Shown here: positions 1 to 9,455 of the stretch, piece by piece
Numbering within the stretch: position 1 is the stretch's first letter
Layout of the letters: each line of letters opens with the position of its first letter
DNA from: a virus
IMG/VR virus record: IMGVR_UViG_3300025423_000070
Location: 1 to 28,963 of that record
Direction: 5' to 3' (one strand)
DNA: 28,963 nucleotides
Notes under the pieces: model-generated
The model's database searches: none
What the model was told of the DNA's origin: nothing
Seen by the model: only the letters and a program-made list of their open reading frames with translations
Made by a program: the position numbers and the translations under genes

Positions 1-1683
1 TTTGGCCAGCCGCACAGCCCAAAGAAGTCGGTCATGCTCACCGGCGACGACCTGACGGCCGACGACCTCAGCGTACAGGGCATCAGCGTCGACGAGGTCC
101 TGCACTCGATGAACATCCTGCCAGCAGCGCCACAGGAGCACGTTCCTGCCGCGCCAAGGCCCCAGCCCACCCCTACCCCTATGGCCCCCGGTCTGGACGA
201 CTACAGCCGGTCCATCAATGCCATTCAGCACCTCGACCCTGACATCACGCACGACGAATGGGTGATGGTCGGCATGGCCTTGAAGGACGGCCTGCAGGAG
301 CAGGGATACCAGATCTGGCTGGACTGGTCAAAAAAAGGATCAAAGTTCACCTCGGAGCAAGAGTGCGAGCAGAAGTGGCGCAGCTTCAAGAAATCAGGGG
401 TGAAGATCAACACGCTGTTCGGCATGGCCCAGAGGGCTGGCTGGCAGAACCCGCGCAAGGGACTGCCAAAGCAAAAGCCATCTGCCTATCAGGAGTTCGA
501 GCCCTACATCACCAACCCGGGTATTGACCCTGACACAGGGGAAATCCTAGAACCACCACCGCCACAACTCCCAAATGGCTGGCCGGAGCTTGAATACAGC
601 CTTGGCAAGCTACCGGCCATTGACTACCTCATCGAAGGCTTCCTCGCCCACTCCTTTGGCGTCTTTGCTGGCCAGCCGGGGGTCGGCAAGACCACAGCGG
701 TGATCTCCCTTGCCCTCATAGTTGCCGGGTTCAACATCCCGGGCTCTGACTGCACCGCCAAGTCCAGACGCAAGGTGATCTACGTCTCCGAAGACTCAGC
801 ACAAATTGTCCGCAGCCTGTACGGCTACTGCAAGATATTCAACTTCGACCCACATGAAATCTCACAATGGTTGATCCTGATTGACTCGAAACGCAGCGAC
901 GTTGACGAGGTCCTGCAACTGGCGCACAACGTAATACGCCACACATTAAATAATGAACGCCCATGGCTAATTATAGATACCGCAAATGCAACTCTGGATA
1001 TTGAAAACGAAAACGACAATTCCGAGGTGGGTAAATATATTGCAGCGCTCAAGCAACTGATTTACACGAAACTGCACACCCCAATAACCATCGTCACGCA
1101 CACTTCAAAAACATCAGGGCGTGGCGACGACGCGGCCCTTGCGCGCGGCGCGTCGGCGTTCACCGGCGACGCGACTCTTACCGGGGCCATCTTCCTAGAC
1201 CAAGACGAAGAGCGCTATTTCAGGCTCACCAAGCACCGCTACGAGCCGGAATTCAAAGAGGTGAGGTTTGACACCCAGTTCCATGAGGCCACGGTCCTTG
1301 ACCGGCACGGCGACCCCCAGTCCCAGCGCTGCATTGTCGTGACCCCAATTTCATCATCCCAGACGGCCCGCCAAGTAGCACGGGAAGAGGCCCAGAGCGC
1401 TGAGCAGCAGGCCCGCGTGACCGACGTGCTGGACCGGGTCACCCTTTACGTGCGGAACCTGATCAACACCACGCCGCAGGGCGTCTGCATGCGCAAGGGC
1501 AGGCTGCCAAAGAACCCGCCGGTGGCCATGGCGGGCATGCACCGGCTGGCGCTGGATGAAATACGCGGGGCGGTTGAGGGCGCGTCTTCGAACGACGTGC
1601 GCGGTCGGCTGGTCTGGAAAATCATCCACGAGTTTGCGCCCTCGGCCGAGAACGCCGACAACCTGTGGGTGCGTCTGGCTTAA
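1..1683 (+). CDS. Primase/replicative helicase-like ATPase (PriCT-2 + RecA-like domain), 5' end outside window
   Basis: Likely replication protein that unwinds or primes phage DNA. The reading frame is open from base 1 with no stop before the first ATG at 34, so the gene probably begins upstream, perhaps with a prim-pol domain; this is inference. Counting from the ATG at 34, residues about 58-138 look like a PriCT-2 (primase C-terminal) domain (DEWVMVGMALKDGL ... GMAQRAGW). A RecA/RepA-type ATPase follows, with Walker A GQPGVGKT at 213-220 and Walker B PWLIID at 310-315. A THTSK segment and the RGASAFTGDA region fit AAA_25/RepA-like helicases. Codons at roughly 930-1110, which encode the Walker B region, are much more AT-rich than the flanks, suggesting a recombined patch. 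The iteron region directly downstream supports a role in origin recognition or replication. Confidence 0.85.
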   Translation, partial: FGQPHSPKKSVMLTGDDLTADDLSVQGISVDEVLHSMNILPAAPQEHVPAAPRPQPTPTPMAPGLDDYSRSINAIQHLDPDITHDEWVMVGMALKDGLQEQGYQIWLDWSKKGSKFTSEQECEQKWRSFKKSGVKINTLFGMAQRAGWQNPRKGLPKQKPSAYQEFEPYITNPGIDPDTGEILEPPPPQLPNGWPELEYSLGKLPAIDYLIEGFLAHSFGVFAGQPGVGKTTAVISLALIVAGFNIPGSDCTAKSRRKVIYVSEDSAQIVRSLYGYCKIFNFDPHEISQWLILIDSKRSDVDEVLQLAHNVIRHTLNNERPWLIIDTANATLDIENENDNSEVGKYIAALKQLIYTKLHTPITIVTHTSKTSGRGDDAALARGASAFTGDATLTGAIFLDQDEERYFRLTKHRYEPEFKEVRFDTQFHEATVLDRHGDPQSQRCIVVTPISSSQTARQVAREEAQSAEQQARVTDVLDRVTLYVRNLINTTPQGVCMRKGRLPKNPPVAMAGMHRLALDEIRGAVEGASSNDVRGRLVWKIIHEFAPSAENADNLWVRLA

Positions 1684-1724
1684 GGGTGCGGTCTTGAATG
1701 TGTTGAATGTGTTGAATGTGTTTA

Positions 1725-1741
1725 GACTGTGTTGCACAGTC
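1725..1741. repeat. Inverted repeat inside iteron block A
   Basis: GACTGTG and CACAGTC form a perfect 7-bp inverted repeat around TTG. It is nested in a larger, nearly perfect palindrome between 1712 and 1752, where TTGAATGTG faces CACATTCAA. Confidence 0.6.
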
Positions 1742-1773
1742 AACACATTCAAGAAAAGGCAGGGTCGGAGCGG

Positions 1774-1803
1774 TGCAGTGCGCGCTATAAAGCGCACTGC
1801 ACG
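1774..1803. repeat. 11-bp perfect inverted repeat between iteron blocks
   Basis: GTGCAGTGCGC (1774-1784) and GCGCACTGCAC (1793-1803) are perfect inverted copies separated by eight bases that include TATAAA. The inner GCGCT...AGCGC offers an alternative pairing. It lies midway between the two iteron blocks and could be an operator, a cruciform or part of the origin. There is no following T-run, so a terminator role is unlikely. Confidence 0.6.
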
Positions 1804-1820
1804 TCCACCATTCGGTCGAG

Positions 1821-1829
1821 TTATCCACA
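1821..1829 (+). promoter_or_regulatory. Perfect DnaA box
   Basis: TTATCCACA matches the bacterial DnaA-box consensus TTATNCACA exactly. It sits between the two iteron blocks, supporting recruitment of host DnaA to this locus. Confidence 0.55.
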
Positions 1830-1952
1830 GGTTGTAAGGTTTTGGTGGGCTTGACTGTGTTGAATGTGTTGAGTGTGTTTTCCCTATAGTCAACACATTC
1901 AAGACGACACATTCAAGAGAGATGGAGTTGCTTAAAAAAGAGGCAGTTGAAT

Positions 1953-5115: not shown

Positions 5116-5160
5116 GATGAAGTCCTTTTTTCGTTTACAGGTTTAAGGGTTTGGCGAGAG

Positions 5161-5208
5161 GGATTCCCACCGCACAGCCCAGCACGCCGGGCTGTACGTC
5201 GGGTCATC
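5161..5208 (-). repeat. Intergenic hairpin repeat, copy R1
   Basis: A 48-bp element shared with 6643-6690 and 6943-6990, beginning GGATTCCCACCGCACAGCCC. The inverted repeat arms lie at 5174-5183 and 5186-5195. This copy carries one substitution in an arm. In minus-strand RNA the change leaves a G-U pair, whereas in plus-strand RNA it would be an A-C mismatch. The preserved pairing supports function in the minus-strand transcript. Confidence 0.75.
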
Positions 5209-6337: not shown

Positions 6338-6607
6338 TCAGGCTGGCTGCAGGTCCTTGATGTCGTGGCCGGTGACCAGACGGCCGCACAGCGTGACGTG
6401 ATTGCGGACCTGCTCGATCGTAGGGCTGTGCAGGTAGCAGACGTCGATCCACTGGCCGCACAGGCGGGTGCCTTCAAACCACGTCAGGTAGACGTCGTGG
6501 CCGCGCACGCACACGACCGTGCGCACGGTCGCCTCGGGCGTTTCATTGATCACGACGAGGTCGCAGACGCGCAGGTCCTTGGCTTTGATTTTCTGGGGCT
6601 TTTTCAT
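6338..6607 (-). CDS. Hypothetical 89-aa protein, beta-rich
   Basis: The ATG at 6607 is preceded by the repeated operon leader (CCTGAAAACGGAGAAACCGAC), here naming only its GGAG core as the ribosome site. The sequence opens with a Lys-rich stretch (MKKPQKIKAKDL). It continues with alternating hydrophobic strands (CDLVVINETPEATVRTVVCV, HDVYLTWFEG) reminiscent of small SH3-like barrels, which is a weak inference. Function unknown. Flanked by hairpins on both sides. Confidence 0.75.
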   Translation of the reverse strand: MKKPQKIKAKDLRVCDLVVINETPEATVRTVVCVRGHDVYLTWFEGTRLCGQWIDVCYLHSPTIEQVRNHVTLCGRLVTGHDIKDLQPA

Positions 6608-6642
6608 GTCGGTTTCTCCGTTTTCAGGTTAATGGTTTGGCG

Positions 6643-6690
6643 GGATTCCCACCGCACAGCCCGGCACGCCGGGCTGTACGTTGGGTTATC
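6643..6690 (-). repeat. Intergenic hairpin repeat, copy R2
   Basis: Second copy of the 48-bp element, nearly identical to R3 exactly 300 bp away. Arms ACAGCCCGGC (6656-6665) and GCCGGGCTGT (6668-6677) pair perfectly. It follows the 70-aa gene and precedes the leader of the 89-aa gene. Confidence 0.8.
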
Positions 6691-6695
6691 AGACT

Positions 6696-6908
6696 TTATA
6701 AATTCGATACAACCCAATTAAATCCAGTAAAAATAGAGCGCTCATCTTGGCGCACTGGGTGACCATCAACATAGATTGTCAGAGTGCCTTGGCCGTATAG
6801 TTCTCCACGCACATATGCTCGAGCGGCTCGCACTGCTGCTCTTATAGACTTAGCTTTGCGACTGCCATTGAGGTAGCTATTATTGTTTTTTGCGGACCAT
6901 GTAATCAT
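6696..6908 (-). CDS. Hypothetical 70-aa basic protein, AT-rich cassette
   Basis: Starts at the ATG at 6908, with GGAG in the repeated leader. The protein is basic with a helical arginine-rich centre (KAKSIRAAVRAARAYVRGEL) followed by a beta hairpin (TLTIYVDGHPVRQDERS). The pattern recalls small phage proteins that bind nucleic acid, but no family is recognised. Its codons are clearly more AT-rich than those of every neighbour in the operon. It is bracketed by hairpin repeats R2 and R3, suggesting insertion as a cassette by recombination between repeats. Confidence 0.75.
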   Translation of the reverse strand: MITWSAKNNNSYLNGSRKAKSIRAAVRAARAYVRGELYGQGTLTIYVDGHPVRQDERSIFTGFNWVVSNL

Positions 6909-6942
6909 GTCGTTTCTCCGGTTTCAGGTTAAGGGTTGAGGT

Positions 6943-6990
6943 GGATTCCCACCGCACAGCCCGGCACGCCGGGCTGTACGTTGGGTCATC
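6943..6990 (-). repeat. Intergenic hairpin repeat, copy R3
   Basis: Third copy of the 48-bp element, with perfect arms at 6956-6965 and 6968-6977. It differs from R2 at a single base (C versus T near its right end). The stop codon of the 21-residue ORF lies inside its right edge, so the element begins at the end of translation. Confidence 0.8.
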
Positions 6991-7051
6991 CCTTGGGGGC
7001 GAACTGCGCTGGTGGGTTCTGGGTGTTCAGGTGGGCTGGGATGTGGAACAT
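6986..7051 (-). CDS. 21-residue ORF heading the minus operon (possible leader peptide)
   Basis: Begins MFHIPAHLNTQNPP and ends QFAPKG. It has the full repeated leader with GGAG eight bases before the ATG at 7051, identical around the start to the leader of the next gene. Its stop codon falls within hairpin R3. Its position as first ORF of the operon and the adjoining hairpin would suit a leader peptide or a tiny functional phage protein. No membrane segment is present. The evidence for translation is the ribosome site, not the length. Confidence 0.5.
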   Translation of the reverse strand: MFHIPAHLNTQNPPAQFAPKG

Positions 7052-7174
7052 GTCGTTTCTCCGATTTCAGGTTTAAGGGTTTAAGGGTTTAGTCAATGTC
7101 CGAAGACGGCACGATCTTCTCATGCCGTTGCCGGAAACGTCAACACAATTGTATCTATGCAAAAGCTCATGCTG

Positions 7175-7189
7175 ATAGTCCTGGACTAT
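7175..7189. promoter_or_regulatory. Palindrome, possible operator
   Basis: ATAGTCC and GGACTAT flank a single T, giving a 15-bp dyad upstream of the minus operon, near a possible -10. The dyad is compatible with binding by a dimeric repressor. No repressor gene is recognised in the window. Confidence 0.35.
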
Positions 7190-7435
7190 TGACTCAGGGT
7201 GCACCTGTGCGCCCTCCGGCCGCTGAAAAAACGCGCGATTCGGGCCTGCGCACGCGTAGCATGAACCGTGCCAACAGGCCAAAAATGGCCTATGCACCAA
7301 AATGGGGAAAACGCTTAAAAGGGCCCATTTCGGGCCTCGTTTCCGGCAACCTAGGGTAGGGGTGCCAAAAAAAGTTGTCGGCCGTTCTAGGGCCCTTCTC
7401 GTGCGTTTTAGACATGGTAGGGTTTACCCTGATTT

Positions 7436-7570
7436 TGTGGATAACTTGGCCTTTTTTGTCCTTTTTTGTGGGGACAACTCTGCGACCAGATGTGGATAAC
7501 TTTGGTTGTCCACAGTGTGGATAACTCTGTGGATAAGTTATCCACATGTTGTTCAGCAGGTTGTGGATAT
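7436..7570. other. DnaA-box cluster, candidate replication origin
   Basis: Perfect DnaA boxes (TTATCCACA or its complement) lie at 7436-7444, 7491-7499, 7516-7524, 7528-7536 and 7538-7546. Near matches lie at 7506-7514 (TTGTCCACA) and 7562-7570 (TGTGGATAT). The pair at 7528-7546 forms the palindrome TGTGGATAAGTTATCCACA. T-rich tracts (CCTTTTTTGTCCTTTTTTG, about 7450-7468) could serve as an unwinding element. Such density is typical of bacterial and plasmid origins, not of ordinary phage intergenic DNA. Alternatives are DnaA-regulated transcription or a DnaA-titrating decoy. Confidence 0.75.
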
Positions 7571-7608
7571 CTTGCGTTGCCTGCATTTGGTGTGATACAT
7601 TCGGGCGC

Positions 7609-8025
7609 ATGACAGACCTCGACCCAAATCAGCACACATCCTCACCAGCCGCTACACCTGCGCCCGCTGAGCGCAAAAAGGTGGGCGGTGCACGCGCGAA
7701 CAGCGGCGGCGCACGCGTCGGCTCTGGCAGGCCGAAGACCACTCCAGTGCAGCAGGTCATGGCCAAAGTCAAGGCCGACATGCTGGAGCGCGCAGTCAAA
7801 GAGTGCAAGATCACGCCACTGGAGTACATGCTGCAGGTGCTCAGCGGTGATCACCCTGACGCGCGTGGCCCTGCTGATCGACAGTGGGCCGCGACGGCCG
7901 CCGCGCCGTACATGCACGCCAGGCTGTCGCAGGTCAACAGCACCACTGAGGCCAGCGTCAAAGTGAGCGCTGAAGAGGCCGCGGCGGTGACCAAAGACAT
8001 CGTTGGCACCCTGTTCGGCGCGTGA
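7609..8025 (+). CDS. terS: Terminase small subunit (putative)
   Basis: Predicted 138-residue DNA-recognition subunit of the packaging motor. The ATG at 7609 is the first start that leaves the DnaA-box region untranslated, but no Shine-Dalgarno site is visible. A leaderless or unusual start is possible, with TACATT at 7596-7601 as a weak -10. A low-complexity N-terminus leads to GGARVGSGRPK (about 33-43), the Gly/Arg-rich segment common at the N-terminus of phage small terminases. A helical DNA-binding/oligomerisation region follows (VKADMLERAVKECKITPLEYML). It lies directly upstream of terL, and its stop overlaps a possible GTG start of terL. Confidence 0.75.
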   Translation: MTDLDPNQHTSSPAATPAPAERKKVGGARANSGGARVGSGRPKTTPVQQVMAKVKADMLERAVKECKITPLEYMLQVLSGDHPDARGPADRQWAATAAAPYMHARLSQVNSTTEASVKVSAEEAAAVTKDIVGTLFGA

Positions 8026-8027
8026 CC

Positions 8028-9455
8028 ATGGCAGCCGTCGCAGAGGCCCCAGCGCTGACCCGCGGCGACGTCGAGGCCAAGCTGTCCACGCTGCCCCTGT
8101 ACGCCCTCAAGGCCGTGCGCGCACGCACCGATTGGCTGGCAAAGGCCCATGACTACCAAGTGCCTGAGCGCGACGACCTGTGGTCCTCGTGCCACATTTA
8201 CCTGCTGCTGGCCGGGCGCGGTGCCGGCAAGACGCGTGCAGCGGCCGAGTGGCTGTGGTGGCAGGCGTGGACGCACCCCGGCACGCGCTGGCTGATCAGC
8301 GCGCCCACGGCCGCCGACGTGCGCGACGTGGCGTTCTCGGGCGACAGCGGCATCATGACGGTCTGCCCCAAGGAGATCATAAAAAGCTACATGATTACAA
8401 CGTCCGAAATCGTTTTCATAAATGGCAGTATTATCAAGGGCATACCGGCGTCTGAGCCTGAGCGCTTCAGGGGGCCCCAATTCCACGGAGGCTGGTTAGA
8501 TGAACTTGCAGCATGGGAAGATTTAGATGAAGCTTGGAACCAAATCCAATTTGGTTTAAGACTTGGTAAGCATCCCCGTTTAATGTGCACCACAACACCT
8601 CGACCCAAGCCATTAATTTTTGATTTGGTAGAACGAGATGGCCACGACGTTTGCTATGTAAGCGCAACAACATACGACAACCTAGAAAATTTAGCACCAA
8701 CTTTTAAGGCGCAAATTTTGCAGTACGAAAATACTGCGCTTGGTGATCAGGAAATTAACGCGGTACTTTTAGATCCCAGCGATCATGGAATCATTAAACG
8801 CGACTGGTTTCGCTTATGGTATACGGATCGTGCTTTGCCAAAATTTACTATGGTGATTCAGTCATACGACTGCGCCACCAGCGCAAAAACTCATAACGAC
8901 AGTACCGCCTGCATTGTTTTGGGGGTATTTAAACCAGAAGATCGGCCCACCAGCGTGATGGTAATTGACGCATGGTCAGAGCGCATGGAATACCCTGACT
9001 TGCGCGCCAAGGCAATTGAAGATTACCAAGTGGTCTATGGTGACCCGGATGAATTTGGCCAAGGCAAAAAAACTGATGTGATTTTGATCGAAGACAAGAG
9101 TGCCGGAATCCAATTAATCCAAGACATGCAGCGTGCCGGTCTGCCGGTGCGTTCGTACAACCCGGGCAGGGCAGACAAAATTATGCGTGCCAACTTGGTG
9201 GCCCCCATCATTGAGCGCGGCTTGCTGTACTTGCCTGAGAGCGACAAGAACCCCGGCACGTTTCGGTCGTGGTTGAAGGACGCCATATCGCAATGGACAT
9301 CATTCCCTGAAACGCGGCATGACGACTACGTAGATGCCTTGACGCAAGCTTTGCGATACCTCAAAGATGCTGGGATAATTCGCATAGACCCACTCGACAC
9401 ATACGACGAGTACGCGGACGACCATAAGTTCCGCGTCAACCCATACGCCCAATAG
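8028..9455 (+). CDS. terL: Terminase large subunit (packaging ATPase/nuclease)
   Basis: ATP-driven DNA translocase and headful or site-specific nuclease that fills the procapsid through the portal. Counting from an alternative GTG at 8022 (overlapping the terS stop), Walker A GRGAGKT is at 65-71 and Walker B GGWLDEL at about 156-162. The coupling motif TTTPRP is at about 190-195. The RNase-H-like nuclease shows SYDCAT (Asp about 282), ILIEDKS (Glu about 356) and RHDDYVDAL near 431-439. Length is normal. The ATG at 8028 is a conventional choice; neither start has a clear ribosome site. Codon use is strongly GC-rich up to about 8380 and AT-richer after it, with the frame intact, so the gene looks chimeric. 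Confidence 0.95.
   Translation: MAAVAEAPALTRGDVEAKLSTLPLYALKAVRARTDWLAKAHDYQVPERDDLWSSCHIYLLLAGRGAGKTRAAAEWLWWQAWTHPGTRWLISAPTAADVRDVAFSGDSGIMTVCPKEIIKSYMITTSEIVFINGSIIKGIPASEPERFRGPQFHGGWLDELAAWEDLDEAWNQIQFGLRLGKHPRLMCTTTPRPKPLIFDLVERDGHDVCYVSATTYDNLENLAPTFKAQILQYENTALGDQEINAVLLDPSDHGIIKRDWFRLWYTDRALPKFTMVIQSYDCATSAKTHNDSTACIVLGVFKPEDRPTSVMVIDAWSERMEYPDLRAKAIEDYQVVYGDPDEFGQGKKTDVILIEDKSAGIQLIQDMQRAGLPVRSYNPGRADKIMRANLVAPIIERGLLYLPESDKNPGTFRSWLKDAISQWTSFPETRHDDYVDALTQALRYLKDAGIIRIDPLDTYDEYADDHKFRVNPYAQ

Follow-up and report, generated by a model that had tools for sequence, protein, structure and literature searches.

A cluster of perfect DnaA boxes, far denser than chance would produce, heads the terminase and structural genes of a lake phage, with its spacing and position conserved in relatives and a conserved promoter-like sequence beside it, and a second site behind the primase-helicase gene is accompanied by a change in GC skew. 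The original prediction for this DNA had offered three readings of the cluster (a DnaA-dependent phage origin, a decoy that titrates host DnaA, and a coupling of early/late switching to DnaA), and the last of these seems to fit the anatomy best. We prefer control of a late promoter to an origin because of the contact between boxes and promoter, the existence of a better origin candidate elsewhere, and the lack of a skew switch at the cluster. The full statement, a host-DnaA site that would control the late promoter with the aid of titration while replication starts at the second site, is put forward tentatively, as a whole that falls somewhat short of probable.

The window, by which we mean the whole IMG/VR record of 28,963 bases, is a linear fragment, and a second contig (L001), 100% identical over the overlap, continues the phage, in rightward genes, to 40.7 kb; no terminal overlap or end repeat was found in the window and this extension, the genome, like those of the relatives compared, being incomplete. 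At the far left are plus-strand replication genes for a primase-helicase and a VRR-NUC protein. The flanks of the cluster are as originally described, with minus-strand genes on the left occupying about 6.9 to 2.8 kb (one of them for a DUF932 protein) and, on the right, a TerS candidate and TerL followed by a portal-like protein and head proteins (Table 1). That the window is a chromosome fragment or a chimera was considered and rejected, as independent contigs show the same join and phage genes lie on both sides. A TerL-based scan of genome contigs for a host or prophage found no relative, and a scan of genome contigs with the core motif of the cluster gave one match, on a scaffold of 'Bacterium D16-51'. 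Rfam returned no credible structured RNA for 6400-8100. Leader-like repeats stand before minus-strand genes at 5122-5208, 6604-6690, 6905-6990 and 7049-7078 (the first three 84-91% alike over ~87 bp, the copy at 7049 shorter), each with a ribosome-site-like GGAGAAACGAC-ATG and a GC-rich hairpin upstream.

Table 1. Positions of the features of the window discussed in the text
Feature	Position	Strand	Remarks
Primase-helicase (PriCT_2 + AAA_25)	34..1683	+	domain matches; 5' end cut at window edge
Alternative origin candidate	1690..1930		between primase-helicase and next gene; repeats, hairpins, DnaA box, skew
Near-palindromic operator-like site GTTGCCGGAAACG	7127..7139	+	100% complementary to 7338-7350
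Conserved non-coding stretch upstream of box 1	7225..7435		carries TGCACCAAAATGGnGAAAACGC at 7293-7314
Second operator-like site CGTTTCCGGCAAC	7338..7350	+	
Palindrome GGGTTTACCC	7420..7429		directly before box 1; from sequence
DnaA box 1, perfect TTATCCACA	7436..7444	-	offset 0; core of conserved element
T-rich tract TTTTTTGTCCTTTTTTGT	7452..7469	+	first T6 invariant, remainder variable
Weak DnaA box 1b, TGGGGACAA	7469..7477	-	two mismatches; offset 33
DnaA box 2, perfect	7491..7499	-	offset 55
Inverted DnaA box TTGTCCACA	7506..7514	+	one mismatch; offset 70
DnaA box 3, perfect	7516..7524	-	offset 80
Back-to-back pair of perfect boxes TGTGGATAAGTTATCCACA	7528..7546	7528-7536 (-), 7538-7546 (+)	
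One-mismatch DnaA box ATATCCACA	7562..7570	-	last box; ends 1 bp before -35
Predicted late promoter TTGCGT-n18-TACATT	7572..7601	+	extended -10 (TGn); consensus inference
Terminase small subunit (TerS) candidate, 138 aa	7609..8025	+	phrog_15261 (unknown function); named from position before TerL
Terminase large subunit (TerL)	8022..9455	+	PF03237/PF17289, phrog_38/phrog_2

The five perfect and two one-mismatch boxes originally reported within 7436-7570 are all confirmed. The five exact TTATCCACA boxes span 111 bp, and elsewhere in the window this 9-mer has two copies only, at 1821 and 18034. Among 900 simulated windows (Markov order 1-3) it occurred 0.08-0.14 times per window and never more than once within 135 bp, and from its density outside the cluster the probability of at least five boxes in 135 bp is ~6e-13. 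One-mismatch boxes overall show no excess over chance (17 seen against 20 expected), so the signal consists of the perfect boxes and their spacing. It could be argued that a phage protein uses the 9-mers as operators, or that their match to the DnaA box is incidental, given that DnaA binding is predicted here from sequence and that the region has further palindromes of operator-like form; the repeated unit is, however, the strong DnaA box TTATCCACA to the letter, present in both orientations, and unrelated phages have clusters of this 9-mer too, and we consider such an explanation very improbable.

When the locus was checked in close relatives, where a lack of boxes would have told against the original prediction, boxes were present with conserved spacing in all the nearest ones. 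A cluster precedes TerS-TerL in L036/L037/L120, L038, L121 and L119, whose TerL proteins are 79-86% identical to that of the window, and none was found in TerL relatives at 73% identity or below, including MW202545. Counted from box 1, the boxes lie at offsets 0, 33 (weak), 55, 70, 80, 92, 102 and 126 in the window, 0, 33, 54, 71, 85, 103 and 125 in L119, 0, 33, 55 and 79 in L118, 0, 54, 68, 80 and 97 in L036, and 0, 33, 54, 68, 80 and 97 in L121, the shared offsets being 0, 33, 54-55, about 68-70 and about 80. Box 1 is invariant in the window, L119, L118, L036 and L038/L121, and the box at offset 33 is perfect in L118 and L119 and has one mismatch in L121; the inverted box is found at offset 68 in L036 (where it is perfect) and L121, the offset-80 box is shared with the same two, and the last one-mismatch box has the same position in L119, as TGTGGACAA. 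The palindrome before box 1 is kept in five lineages, with GGGTTATCCC in L119, and the core GGGTTTACCC-n4-TTTGTGGATAACTTGGC-T6 is nearly invariant. The back-to-back palindromic pair to which the original prediction drew attention is real in the window but absent from the compared relatives, while the T-rich tract at 7452-7469 is also real, with its first T6 conserved (T6-n3-A8 in L118/L119), but does not form a strong melting site.

Conservation extends beyond the boxes themselves, as non-coding positions 7226-7525 are ~77-78% identical to L120/L121 compared with ~72% for TerL coding DNA, and L118 keeps 223 bp of the cluster region at 73.5%. Judged by these comparisons, the cluster is under selection. 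A pac or cos site is an unlikely cause, because L118 retains its 223 bp despite a TerL that is only ~30% identical. The two operator-like sites of Table 1 form a GTTTCCGGAAAC-like pair that flanks ~200 bp and resembles operators of a phage regulator; relatives carry similar GTTTCCGGAAAC-like sites.

These features bear on the view that the cluster is a decoy, soaking up host DnaA and stopping initiation on the host chromosome during phage replication. As at a datA-like titration locus, high-affinity boxes are many (the five perfect ones), 5-7 strong boxes per genome would amount to hundreds of sites at usual phage copy numbers, and T5-like, Berlinvirus and Lactococcus 949-like phages also have non-coding box clusters. 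A pure decoy, however, needs neither the fixed spacing, the conserved T6, the flanking palindrome and the 200 bp of upstream sequence nor the placement against a promoter. A decoy function is possible, but by itself it leaves the conserved spacing and the conserved non-box letters unexplained, and as an account of the cluster we find it unlikely.

The placement against a promoter was recognised with a pattern drawn from comparison of the relatives and then matched to the window, TTGC(G/T)(T/C)-n18-TA(G/C)ATT with an extended -10, which has one match there; a general consensus promoter scan missed this TerS promoter. In four lineages (the window, at 7 nt, L119, L036 and L121) the predicted promoter precedes the TerS ATG by 7-8 nt, and the TerS mRNA may be leaderless or nearly so, because the -10 ends 7 nt before the ATG (7596-7611) and does likewise in three relatives. 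Both the window and L119 have the anatomy of a DnaA-regulated promoter, a sigma-70-type promoter with a box at or near the -35: the one-mismatch box ends 1 bp before the -35 in each, and the distance between box 1 and the -35 comes to 136 bp in the window and 135 bp in L119. The nearest clear box in L036 and L121 is ~60-90 bp before the -35, and box-promoter contact is therefore not universal; its absence from these two, together with the promoter-distal position of the core, weakens the reading that we favour. In L036, L038 and L121 the spot before the -35 is occupied by TGCTTAAnnnTTAAGCA-like palindromic sites. Palindromes of this kind (L036:2212-2330, L121:1431-1500, window 1930-1950) precede TerS in some relatives, and also the gene after the primase, and are possible operators of a phage regulator.

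The promoter-distal core, whose best-conserved part (box 1/T6/box 1b) is at least 90 bp from the promoter, would suit a DnaA-dependent, oriC-like phage origin, at which host DnaA would melt the T-rich tract that separates box 1 from box 1b, and either the primase-helicase or the host helicase would be loaded. Consistent with such an origin are the dense perfect boxes with their fixed, partly helically phased spacing (0/33/54/68/80), the conserved T6 tract between two like-oriented boxes, a non-coding conservation that exceeds that of coding DNA, and the retention of the core where the terminase differs. The conserved box arrangement upholds one part of the original prediction of an oriC-like origin, but a GC-skew switch point and a clear DUE do not accompany it: a switch at 7.5 kb was looked for in the window and its 40.7-kb extension and none was found, the switch being at ~1.5 kb, and the T tract stands at the 18th percentile of 50-bp stability, with the lowest-stability point of the cluster at about the 3rd percentile. 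DnaA boxes near a phage origin can be dispensable: mutating those of P1 oriL had little effect on RepL-driven replication (PMC9948254). A better candidate, moreover, lies behind the primase gene, and an origin at the cluster itself we hold to be doubtful.

That candidate combines iteron-like TTGAATGTG repeats, present in both orientations, with three hairpins and a DnaA box at 1821-1829, and thereby has what marks an iteron origin, direct repeats and a DnaA box near a replication gene; an 11-bp hairpin is formed by GTGCAGTGCGC/GCGCACTGCAC. The single-stranded DNA fold computed for the site is much more stable than those of shuffled sequences (z -10.7, and -7.3 for its equivalent in L138). In L119 and L120 the second site has two tandem DnaA boxes 12 bp apart, and such a tandem pair is also found there in L141; in most members of the L136-L146 group DnaA boxes are absent from the post-primase gap. 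Relatives found through the primase (43-47% identity) have the same layout in other letters (GTCGACCGGAC, GTCGAAGGGACG, AGATACCTCG), and the hairpin arms therefore seem to change together. The cumulative GC-skew minimum of the window is at 1475, and the turn from falling to rising skew comes at the primase 3' end or no more than ~1.4 kb from it in the window, G036, G037, G039, G040 and G041, with the caveat that the genes there mostly share one orientation; the primases being homologous, the minimum at the primase end may also partly reflect the composition of the primase gene. The replication proteins recognised are the primase-helicase and the VRR-NUC protein only, a cognate Rep initiator not being among them in this incomplete genome. 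On the evidence of its sequence, 1690-1930 appears the better origin candidate, and the origin of the phage is probably away from the cluster.

Clusters of DnaA boxes are also found in other phages. The primase relatives L137, L138, L142, L145 and L146 have a box trio, 41 and 15 bp apart, in a matching place, which is just behind the TerS gene in L138 and was assigned by synteny in the others; these three-box clusters, of a second lineage found through the primase (43-47% identity), lie in the gap before the next genes. The 19-bp palindrome TGTGGATAAGTTATCCACA was found in 31 viral contigs, many of them with dense boxes, and the cluster lies at most 3 kb upstream of TerL in 7 of the 15 unrelated palindrome contigs with a detectable TerL where 2.0 would be expected, a proximity whose P of about 6e-4 is indicative only, because the 3-kb limit was set post hoc. 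In other palindrome contigs the cluster borders primase/helicase or DnaD/O-like genes. Box clusters are also present in non-coding DNA of isolated phages of the T5-like, Berlinvirus and Lactococcus 949-like groups; the T7-like Berlinviruses P483 and A7, for example, have 4-5 like-oriented TTATCCACA boxes in a non-coding early-end region (L131:3472-3574 and L130:3930-4043). Published discussion of the clusters in these three groups was found for the T5 region only (PMC13250531).

Of 30 palindrome clusters, seven are no more than 300 bp from a contig end, against 1.1 expected, which may reflect genome ends or an effect of assembly. The cluster might be part of a genome-end, packaging or DNA-entry signal, with DnaA as anchor or roadblock, as has been suggested for the injection stop signal of T5; it does adjoin TerS, and DnaA boxes are described within that T5 signal (PMC13250531). 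Sequence nevertheless continues through the site both in the window and in contig L001, which is identical to it, with no terminal overlap, and the core is retained in L118 beside a terminase of ~30% identity, unlike a pac or cos site. With the enrichment itself perhaps a product of assembly, we think a signal of this type quite improbable.

In the mechanism that we favour, control of a late promoter by host DnaA, the cluster would be a cis-acting site heading the packaging and structural (late) operon. Binding of host DnaA to the array would start from the conserved boxes 1, 1b and 2, and the resulting nucleoprotein complex would reach the -35 of the conserved host-type promoter before TerS and control late transcription. 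In the simplest form, the late promoter would be repressed while free DnaA is plentiful, and repression would be relieved as phage copies, each with 5-7 boxes, consume DnaA, with replication most likely starting at the separate iteron/hairpin site. Binding of DnaA to the cluster is, given these boxes, highly probable; promoter activity, the sign of regulation and titration we infer from the same letters, which together suggest that the phage senses or sequesters host DnaA as its late genes are switched on. DnaA is known to activate or repress promoters depending on its level, and in phage lambda it stimulates transcription at the origin (PMC8203912, PMC3985674). A bolder version, which is rather unlikely to hold in full, would make the cluster a copy-number counter: host DnaA would silence the late promoter early, phage boxes would then dilute DnaA, simultaneously halting host initiation and opening the packaging genes, and the clusters before the terminases of unrelated phages would be the same device.

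If DnaA does bind, the master replication initiator of the host would be used at the start of a phage late operon, and a single protein would connect the copy number of the phage with replication of the host and with the early-late switch. Recurrence of clusters near terminase genes would generalise the idea, which is easily tested. A further outcome of the analysis is an origin candidate of unusual structure, separate from the cluster, behind the primase-helicase gene.

Several known systems share parts of this arrangement. Phages of alphaproteobacteria in which CtrA sites confer 'lytic deferment' likewise have operons controlled through sites for a host cell-cycle regulator (PMC9437464), although the regulator is CtrA rather than DnaA; the same study reported that DnaA sites were not asymmetrically distributed in the phages it covered (PMC9437464). 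The T5 injection stop signal, the Berlinviruses and the Lactococcus 949-like phages resemble the window in having 4-5 TTATCCACA-type boxes in a non-coding region, but their clusters are in first-entering, early-end or other non-coding regions, whereas that of the window heads the TerS-TerL operon. With bacterial oriC the cluster shares a dense TTATCCACA array, fixed spacing, a T-rich tract and conserved non-coding flanks, and it differs in having no marked low-stability DUE, no skew switch and a rival origin candidate elsewhere in the genome. Iteron origins with DnaA boxes, such as P1 oriR and that of F, are matched by the repeats and DnaA box of 1690-1930, a site that differs from them in being dominated by hairpins, in lying 5.5 kb from the cluster and in having no initiator protein identified. 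From DnaA-regulated promoters (those of E. coli dnaA and nrdAB, and lambda origin transcription) the cluster differs in that 5-7 boxes head a phage terminase/structural operon, with a regulation that is predicted only; it is like them in its strong boxes near a sigma-70 promoter, and in these systems the direction of regulation depends on the amount of DnaA and on its nucleotide (PMC8203912, PMC3985674).
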